A stretch of DNA of 64,000 nt, taken from Photobacterium proteolyticum (lineage in GTDB: Bacteria; Pseudomonadota; Gammaproteobacteria; Enterobacterales; Vibrionaceae). How positions within the stretch are numbered: position 1 is the first letter of the stretch; each line of letters starts with the position of its first letter. Position numbers and translations under genes: made by a program. The stretch spans positions 30,835-94,834 of the forward strand of contig NZ_MJIL01000097.1 in the NCBI RefSeq assembly GCF_001939735.1, written 5' to 3'. The notes under the pieces are model-generated. The model did not search any database, was not told where the DNA came from, and was given only the letters and a program-made list of their open reading frames with translations. Positions 20,110-34,502 of the stretch are shown here, one piece after another.

Positions 20110-21483
20110 CTAACGCGGCGTGATGGTAAACGACTGATCCGCACTATCGTTAACTTGATAGCCGTAAGCCAGAATCTGGTCTCGAATACTATCTGCCTCA
20201 TCATATAGGCCTTGTTGCTTCATAATCTGTCGCTGCTCAGCAAGCCGCTGTACCTCATCCGGGATAGCCACCTGAATGACCTTTTCAAGCTCCAGACCAA
20301 AGGCTTGATCGAAATAGAGTAATGTTGCTTTTTTATCTGCCGGGGCAATGTCACTGTCAATCACATTCCAGACCAGAGCGAGTGCCTGAGGCATATTCAA
20401 ATCACGGTTGATATACCCCAGAAATGCCACTTTATACTCGTCATCAACCTTGCCACCAGCTGGCATGTCGGCGACCTTCCCTCTTAACCGGCGCAATGCC
20501 TTTTGGGCACCGGCCAATCCTTCCCATGAAAAGCTCAGGTGGCTGCGATAGTGGCTGGTCAGTGTCAAGTAACGATACGCCAGCGGCTCATAGCCTTGCT
20601 CAATCAGACTCTCCAGGCGCAGAGATACCCCGGACTTGGAGATCTTCTCATTGTTAATATTCAAGAAGTAACCATGCATCCAGTAATTTGCCTGCACCTT
20701 GCCATTTTTAGCCTGGCACTGGGCGATTTCATTGGTGTGGTGGACCGGAATATGATCTTCACCACCGATATGGATATCGAACGTTTCTCCAAGGTATTTC
20801 TCGGCCATCGCTGAACATTCAATATGCCAGCCAGGAAAACCGATCCCCCATGGACTTTGCCACTCCATTTGCCGCTTCTGCCCGCTACTGAACTTCCATA
20901 AGGCAAAATCCGTCGGATGCCTTTTCTCGGCCATATCAACGCGTATACCCGCTGCCAGCCCTTGCTTGTCTAACCGGGCAAGCTTGCCATAATCCGGCAT
21001 TTTTTCTGTATCGAAATAGATACCGTCATTGGTTTGATAGGTGTAGCCTTTCTCTTCCAGTGACTGGATAAAAGCAATTTGATCTTGGATATGCTCTGTT
21101 GCCCGGCAGGTAATAGAGGGTTTTAAAATGTTAAGCCGTTCCAAGTCGGTAAAAAAGGCGCTTTCAAATAAAGTAGCAATCTCCCACGCCGACTTGTGCT
21201 GGCTTCGTGCCCCTTTTTCCATTTTATCTTCGCCGCTGTCGCCATCTGACACGAGATGGCCAACATCTGTGATGTTCATGACATGGTTTACCTGATAGCC
21301 GTTCAGTTGTAACACGCGCTTTAAAGTATCCACGAACAAATAGGTACGCAAATTCCCGACATGGGCGTAGTCATAAACGGTCGGGCCACACGCATACAGA
21401 CCAACCTTGAGCGGTTCAATCGAATTAAACGGGGTCAGCTGCCGGTTCAGCGTGTTATAAAAATGCAGTGTCGTTTGTGCCAT
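20110..21483 (-). CDS. cysS: Cysteinyl-tRNA synthetase, divergent type
   Basis: Class I aminoacyl-tRNA synthetase of 457 residues that charges tRNA-Cys. Seen: zinc ligands in YACGPT, HIECSAM and the HH/E of [10 protein letters not shown]; the HIGH-type motif in AHVGNLRT; and the KMSKS-type motif as KISKSG. The sequence departs from the enterobacterial/Vibrio housekeeping enzyme (which has MYVCGITVYD, GGGSDLMFPHHENE and KMSKSLGN): here these read [24 protein letters not shown] and KISKSGVSL. It therefore looks like a second, possibly acquired, CysS rather than the standard copy. AAGGAA lies 7 bases upstream of the ATG. It is preceded by a leader peptide with four Cys codons and a terminator. 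Confidence 0.9.
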
Positions 21484-21503: not shown

Positions 21504-21537
21504 CAAAAAGGCCGCGGATGTAAACATCAACGGCCTG
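21504..21537 (-). terminator. Leader terminator (attenuator) upstream of cysS
   Basis: On the minus strand AGGCCG and CGGCCT arms, with an inner GATG-TTTA-CATC stem, form a long hairpin followed by TTTTTG. It ends about 21 bases before the cysS start codon and just upstream of its ribosome binding site. Its 5' arm (GGCCGT) is complementary to ACGGCC in the leader reading frame (21614-21619), which allows a competing antiterminator. Confidence 0.85.
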
Positions 21538-21596
21538 GGAGATAGTGCGATATATTCGTTAGCGGATAGCTTTTCTAGGCGATAGATTTGCTAGGT
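21538..21596 (-). repeat. Three imperfect 16-bp tandem repeats in cysS leader
   Basis: On the minus strand three consecutive units read CTATCACCTAGCAAAT, CTATCGCCTAGAAAAG and CTATCCGCTAACGAAT, followed by a partial fourth. The first unit contains the leader-peptide stop codon TAG. The units sit between the leader frame and the terminator. Confidence 0.7.
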
Positions 21597-21677
21597 GATA
21601 GCTACACGAAAGCGGCCGTAAATTAAGTATTTACAGCAACAACATAGAGGGTGAGTAAGTGCAGTCATCATCGTCAT
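21591..21677 (-). CDS. Cysteine-rich leader peptide for cysS attenuation
   Basis: 28-codon frame with the product beginning MTMMTALTHPL, then four consecutive Cys codons (TGT TGT TGC TGT, 21633-21644), then KYLIYGRFRVAIT and TAG. It precedes an intrinsic terminator that in turn precedes cysS. This is the layout of his, trp and leu leader peptides, with Cys as the regulatory residue matching the downstream gene. Only 13 bases separate the last Cys codon from the antiterminator segment ACGGCC, so a ribosome stalled for lack of Cys-tRNA would leave it free. The Shine-Dalgarno site is weak and any of three nearby ATGs (21677, 21671, 21668) could be used. Translation is unproven. Confidence 0.75.
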   Translation of the reverse strand: MTMMTALTHPLCCCCKYLIYGRFRVAIT

Positions 21678-34397: not shown

Positions 34398-34502
34398 CAC
34401 GAACAAGGCAAACCATCCGAAAGGATGGGACGCAAAGCTTCCGGCCTAAAAGTGGTTAGTTTATCAATAACTAAGTTGCTTATGGTAGCGGGGTTGCCGA
34501 TG
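34398..34502 (+). ncRNA. c-di-GMP-I (GEMM) riboswitch upstream of tfoY
   Basis: All GEMM-I hallmarks are readable: AAGGCAAACC, a stem CCATCC-GAAA-GGATGG with the GNRA tetraloop, GGGACGCAAAGC, CGGCCTAAA, then ATGGTAGCGGGGTTGCCGATGG closing the structure. It lies about 126 bases before the tfoY-type gene. The same arrangement (Vc2) controls V. cholerae VC1722/tfoY. No clear terminator follows, so control of translation start is as likely as control of transcription. Confidence 0.95.

Follow-up and report, generated by a model that had tools for sequence, protein, structure and literature searches.

On the minus strand of the window, by which we mean the whole stretch of 64,000 nucleotides that was analyzed, a gene for a cysteinyl-tRNA synthetase (CysRS), cysS, is preceded by a short reading frame with a run of Cys codons and by a hairpin terminator (Table 1). 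The first-pass annotation had described the 28-codon leader, the terminator, and the cysS ribosome binding site, and their coordinates hold on direct reading; the complementarity that it claimed between ACGGCC and GGCCGT is likewise correct, as are the positions of both segments and the distance of 13 bases between ACGGCC and the last Cys codon. At the leader, no site rose above threshold in generic scans for promoters and terminators. A T-box or another known riboswitch would suit an aminoacyl-tRNA synthetase gene as target, but Rfam gave no match at the leader, either at the gathering threshold or even at an E-value of 5, and we give this alternative almost no credence. Elsewhere in the window (34398–34502, plus strand), a c-di-GMP-I-GGC riboswitch was matched with 70.2 bits. 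Some 30 extra bases lie between the leader stop and the terminator in the window (21610–21540, minus strand) and in a related locus (L003), with imperfect repeats like GCTATCACCTAGCAAA.

Table 1 Features of the cysS leader region in the window.
Feature	Position	Strand	Remarks
-35-like hexamer TTGATT, leader promoter	21715-21710	minus	sequence; relatives with same placement
-10-like hexamer TAGTTT	21692-21687	minus	17-nt spacer; 9 nt before leader ATG; weak, 3/6 consensus bases
Leader peptide ORF	21677-21591	minus	28 codons, MTMMTALTHPLCCCCKYLIYGRFRVAIT, then stop; codons 12-15 all Cys
Four regulatory Cys codons TGT TGT TGC TGT	21644-21633	minus	read from sequence
Protector hairpin 1:2	21637-21615	minus	GCTGTAAAT (21637-21629) with ATTTACGGC (21623-21615); spans last Cys codons
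Region 2, ACGGCC	21619-21614	minus	partner of terminator 5' arm in stalled state
Intrinsic terminator	21536-21505	minus	hairpin AGGCCGTTGATGTTTACATCCGCGGCCT (21536-21509) and TTTT (21508-21505); -16.4 kcal/mol
Region 3, GGCCGT	21535-21530	minus	terminator 5' arm; pairs with region 2
cysS ribosome binding site AAGGAA	21496-21491	minus	sequence
cysS, accessory cysteinyl-tRNA synthetase, 457 aa	21483-20110	minus	ATG at 21483; TIGR00435 match

Two copies of the codon run TGYTGYTGYTGY are present in the window where 0.30 would be expected, and at least two copies arose in 3 of 100 shuffles. The other copy (1453–1442), also a TGY run, was dropped because it is out of frame within a small hydrophobic ORF. 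With two copies by this shuffle test and one of them out of frame, the Cys run alone is weak evidence; the strong evidence for the putative attenuator is recurrence in relatives.

The enzyme encoded by the window scores 391 bits against TIGR00435 (cut-off 340), and a second CysRS in the same genome is 41% identical to it over residues 5–374. That the target is the only or the housekeeping cysS is ruled out by this other enzyme; the window gene is an accessory cysS. The match that had been pointed out between the regulatory codon and the amino acid of the enzyme stands as far as cysS is the target, but it concerns an accessory CysRS in a genome that has another. We call the other CysRS the presumed housekeeping enzyme because its type is present in nearly all relatives: some CysRS match was found in 58 of 60 genomes, most of them with the housekeeping type only, and among the rows compared its nearest neighbors outside the genus were from Vibrionaceae. 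The host is plausibly one of the Vibrionaceae and probably a Photobacterium; the decaheme marker TIGR03507, sought on suspicion of a Shewanella, was absent. The accessory type was detected in 5 of the 52 genomes examined from the genus (E-value of 1e-100 or better), 5 of 394 drawn from the order (1e-120), and 4 of 369 drawn from the class (1e-100), each count including the genome of the window. Both types occurred together in all 11 order genomes checked (the window's own, G009, G015, G022, G028, G057, G060, G061, G718, G736, and G766), and one further copy, L032, is known from a plasmid record alone. Among the best 80 of 583 confirmed matches, relatives of the accessory type were also present in Burkholderiales, Chloroflexota, Patescibacteria, and archaea. 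Within the genus, a 37-residue stretch at G029:C60:104780-104890, 70% identical to residues 276–312 of the accessory CysRS, is perhaps the remnant of a lost accessory copy. The accessory cysS match in Amantichitinum ursilacus (L064) contains one in-frame TAG, and in L120 (10364–10912) and L036 (6440–7258) the accessory cysS adjoins a gene for a methyltransferase that is TehB-like or UbiE-like by its Pfam match.

A Cys-run leader with a terminator stands before accessory-type cysS at 10 of the 12 loci read from the order, in line with the leader-frame conservation that the first-pass annotation proposed as a check. The ten are the window, L003–L007, L036 (Vibrio sinus), L037 (an Aliivibrio MAG), L126, and L127; the loci without a leader are L032, from a Vibrio coralliilyticus plasmid, and L128, a distant copy that is 50% identical. 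L032, L036, and L037 are named Vibrionaceae, and their place in the order is taken from that. In betaproteobacteria, a Cys leader, with variations, precedes cysS at 23 of the 24 loci read (L033, L034, L040, L043, L047, L049, L055–L059, L061, L062, L064, L065, L069, L073, L078, L081, and L131–L134), the exception being L041; a further Paraburkholderia plasmid match (H75) lies outside these 24. Adjacent Cys codons are present in 21 of these leaders, and L040 and L078, with a single Cys codon each, were included by eye. As a control, upstream ORFs with adjacent Cys codons were found before 2 of 25 housekeeping-type cysS genes, far upstream in L011 and with a TTG start in L017.

No Cys leader with a terminator was found in any of 11 mostly gammaproteobacterial genomes in which only the accessory type was detected (G431, G194, G314, L039, L044, L046, L051, L052, L053, L068, and L070), although "only" is uncertain for a set in which many are metagenome genomes that are perhaps incomplete and one, L053, is labeled just Proteobacteria. 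In L039, a frame that starts with TTG contains two adjacent Cys codons but comes without a terminator. Four betaproteobacterial genomes with a leader (L043, L047, L057, and L081) yielded no full second CysRS, and a leader is missing despite another CysRS in the genome at L038, L041, L042, L045, L048, L050, and L060. The tie between the predicted leader and a second CysRS copy is looser in other groups.

On a gene tree of 56 rows, 31 of them with a leader and with L004 and L006 omitted as near copies, the leader label required 5 changes compared to a shuffled mean of 18.7; none of 500 shuffles was as low, a contrast that near-copies inflate. L128 lies elsewhere on the tree, on a long branch. 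L032 falls inside the leader clade (fork 100/99), its exact place there being weakly supported (fork 93/57), and from this position loss of the leader is the simplest reading.

The region upstream of the leader start is likewise patterned. In a test that is not blind, the pattern having been spotted by eye and then fixed, and in which many rows are close kin, TTGNNN-16/18-TANNNT ended 5–9 nt before the in-frame leader ATG in 27 of 33 leaders, most often at 7 nt; those without it were L040, L043, L047, L057, L078, and L081. None of the 169 other ATGs in these regions showed this spacing, it was present at 1 of 178 ATGs before the 25 housekeeping-type cysS genes, and 1000 shuffles gave a mean of 0.45 and a maximum of 4 of 33. 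When the leaders were scanned with a weight matrix, the best -10 element ended 4–9 nt before the in-frame ATG in 26 of 29, compared to a mean of 3.72 and a maximum of 10 in 200 shuffle runs. No Shine-Dalgarno-like string (AGGA, GGAG, or GAGG) was found before the leader ATG of the window, nor in 25 of the 29 leaders within the stretch tested; the matches that did occur were inside the -10 element (L036, L065, and L069) or at a far ATG (L073), and in L037 a GGAG outside the tested stretch stands two bases before the ATG, too near to serve. Because the promoter-like pair ends so close to the ATG in most leaders, the leader mRNA is probably leaderless, with transcription beginning no more than a few bases from the leader ATG. 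Classical enterobacterial leaders, such as those of his and trp, have a 5' UTR and a Shine-Dalgarno sequence, and the window leader differs from them in having no Shine-Dalgarno sequence.

The 185-nt leader of the window folds better than its shuffled counterparts (z = -2.92; 3 of 200 as good). A hairpin with a strength of at least -10 kcal/mol and a T tract lies between the Cys codons and cysS in 30 of 33 leaders, the window included, the misses being L043, L061 (where the script picked a different hairpin, at -9.1), and L081. With a ribosome placed so that its A site holds the last Cys codon, folding of the RNA beyond it paired the terminator 5' arm with an upstream segment in all 7 gammaproteobacterial leaders of one set, which includes two near-identical pairs, and in all 7 of a second set of distinct leaders. 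Counted from the first base of that codon, this upstream partner begins 12–19 nt further on and lies within 12–26 nt, reaching +44 as well in L127. The 2:3 energy of the window was matched by 8.3% of mononucleotide shuffles, a weak margin, and that of the other six gammaproteobacterial leaders by 0–5.3%. With arms chosen by eye at seven loci, hairpin 1:2 pairs at 10–12 of 12 positions, 2:3 forms 6–8 base pairs, and the terminator pairs at 9–11 of 12. Between the window and L005 there is a one-base frame shift past the Cys codons, yet the RNA stays alike.

Covariation in relatives, which the first-pass annotation had also put forward as a check, was found for one pairing and not for the other. 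By arm swapping among seven distinct leaders, protector hairpin 1:2 covaries (-13.34 kcal/mol native versus -11.04 swapped; matched by 15 of 5040 permutations), but no covariation was detected for antiterminator 2:3, for which 2448 of 5040 permutations did as well as the native arms. The betaproteobacterial 2:3 pairing, as tested, was mostly no better than shuffles; an alternative candidate, seen by eye in the alignment, pairs GCCnnGGGG with CCYCnnGGC at the terminator edge. An antiterminator without covariation, the single Cys codon of L040 and L078, and the want of a strong terminator in L043 and L081 would all fit a leader that acts on translation or on Rho-dependent termination, or a terminator that ends upstream readthrough behind a chance Cys run; we consider this improbable, as Cys runs, terminators, and promoter spacing recur across two classes and the leader label clusters on the tree. 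The statement that all parts of his/trp-type attenuation are present can be kept for the leader, the terminator, and the protector hairpin; the antiterminator folds in the stalled state but does not covary, and the start of the leader has no Shine-Dalgarno sequence and is probably leaderless.

We regard it as very probable that the locus is a ribosome-mediated transcription attenuator that senses the charging of tRNA-Cys and controls the accessory CysRS. Transcription would begin on the leader ATG or only a few bases from it, and ribosomes would start on this leaderless mRNA. With Cys-tRNA plentiful, the ribosome would pass the four Cys codons and hairpin 1:2 would form behind it, allowing terminator 3:4 to stop transcription ahead of cysS. 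With tRNA-Cys uncharged, the ribosome would stall on the Cys codons and cover arm 1; arm 2 (ACGGCC) would be free to pair with arm 3 (GGCCGT) while arm 4 is still to be made, and the polymerase would read through into the spare synthetase. The parts and their ability to fold are properties of the sequence itself, from which we infer stalling, termination, and induction.

Cys-codon attenuation of cysS and leaderless polycysteine attenuators are already in print, and the design in the window is a variant. The first-pass annotation knew of no such design on cysS in Vibrionaceae, a novelty that has to be narrowed: the leader is also in betaproteobacteria, and Cys-codon attenuation of cysS has already been proposed for Rhodobacterales (PMC8632094). 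There, in the accessible text of the report, uORFC-8-2 comprises 145 examples before cysS with tandem Cys codons (PMC8632094). It shares with the window an upstream ORF with adjacent Cys codons, the U run of an intrinsic terminator, cysS as the target, and a proposed ribosome-mediated attenuation, but it is described from Rhodobacterales exclusively and has two Cys codons, whereas the window design has four, serves an accessory CysRS, and occurs in gamma- and betaproteobacteria; the word "leaderless" is absent from the main text of that report (PMC8632094). Four Paracoccus plasmid cysS genes were read as possible examples of uORFC-8-2 and rejected: at three of them a short ORF contains, by eye, one Cys codon, and at the fourth the frame with adjacent Cys codons proved to be the tail of the preceding gene. 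In Sinorhizobium meliloti (L135), a short ORF, MKTVICIICRNIIR, lies about 150 nt upstream of cysS, just after a promoter-like TTGACC...GATAAG seen by eye, and is possibly a leaderless Cys-containing leader on another cysS.

Mycobacteria have polycysteine leaderless short ORFs with cysteine-responsive attenuation, according to the title of Canestrari 2020 (cited in PMC13236596), and mycobacterial Cys leaders had been predicted earlier (PMC1262725). The likeness to the window lies in Cys runs within a leaderless leader ORF and, going by that title, in cysteine-responsive attenuation, whereas the mycobacterial leaders precede Cys operons without conserved terminator hairpins, as far as the accessible text goes (PMC1262725), and that of the window precedes cysS with an intrinsic terminator. 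trpL/rnTrpL of Sinorhizobium meliloti is also a leaderless leader ORF in a proteobacterial attenuator but concerns tryptophan and trpE in an alphaproteobacterium (PMC10117765). Regulatory codons and 1:2, 2:3, and 3:4 pairings are shared with the his, trp, and pheST attenuators of proteobacteria, which are mentioned in PMC1262725. A search of the literature, with subscription journals thinly covered, returned no report of the design for an accessory CysRS, nor any from gamma- or betaproteobacteria.

As for the purpose of the spare enzyme, we see about an even chance that it is a standby for failure or inhibition of the other CysRS. A zinc-sparing backup, like the paralogues made in zinc starvation, is brought to mind by one Klebsiella plasmid record in which the neighbors of a second cysS are folE2, dksA, and genes that encode a transcriptional repressor and a GTP-binding protein; such a combination is characteristic of zinc starvation. 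That cysS, however, is of the housekeeping type (34.5% identity to the window's), and only an 11-codon frame precedes it, which begins with GTG, contains two Cys, and ends a few bases from cysS, leaving no room for a terminator. Moreover, Cys codons would sense charging and not zinc, and the residues presumed to bind Zn by analogy with the E. coli enzyme (C32, C223, H248/H249, and E252) are retained in the window enzyme; this last is a weak point, as they are kept in the Klebsiella and Salmonella plasmid copies too. We find the zinc reading unsupported and highly improbable. Klebsiella accounts for 503 of the 624 plasmid records with a CysRS-like match, and the one copy read (L129) is from Klebsiella pneumoniae NZ_CP097652.1.

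Tentatively, the accessory CysRS might serve self-protection or resistance against a natural CysRS inhibitor, with the attenuator as its inducer, because inhibiting the other CysRS would uncharge tRNA-Cys; this is a reading of purpose and is compatible with the attenuation mechanism. It is consistent with the patchy occurrence of the accessory type in the genus and with its coexistence with the housekeeping type in the order genomes described above. On the Vibrio coralliilyticus plasmid pOCN014, a copy that is 71% identical lies convergent at the end of an NRPS/PKS cluster (L116, region 190000–238000), beside phosphopantetheinyl transferase and serine acetyltransferase genes; the cluster holds genes of the NRPS and hybrid NRPS/PKS kinds together with one for an MFS pump. 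In the hybrid enzyme, the motif DxxxxDxxS is of the Cy type and the A domain contains FDLSVYD...GGATEASIW, so that this module is likely to be Cys-activating and of the cysteine heterocyclisation type. The pOCN014 copy is L032, which has no leader in the midst of the leader clade, as expected if it had been made constitutive. Its place beside the cluster hints at an inhibitor-resistant spare enzyme. Against resistance, there is one such cluster only, no NRPS/PKS genes were seen among the few neighbors examined in the window, L036, L037, L120, and L122, and we know of no natural CysRS inhibitor; a literature search found none. A precedent is auxiliary TrpRS1, which is controlled by attenuation. 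This indolmycin-resistant enzyme is, like that of the window, an accessory synthetase, but it differs in amino acid and phylum, and resistance is shown there and guessed for the window CysRS (PMC9437257). A title cited in the same source refers to one of two TrpRS as being induced, and a table in it gives no auxiliary function for CysRS (PMC9437257). Bolder, and rather unlikely as a whole, is the proposal that the leaderless Cys-codon attenuator is an antibiotic-inducible switch on a mobile, inhibitor-resistant CysRS of Vibrionaceae, their kin, and Burkholderiales, such that natural CysRS inhibitors would exist and one would be made by the pOCN014 NRPS/PKS cluster, whose producer would have lost the attenuator.

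In two classes of Proteobacteria, comparison of related loci argues that a spare synthetase is under attenuation that senses Cys-tRNA, through a leader ORF that is probably leaderless. To our knowledge, such leaderless ORFs have otherwise been described from actinobacteria and alphaproteobacteria alone. What the accessory CysRS is for can now be put to the test, and the pOCN014 cluster may make a CysRS inhibitor.
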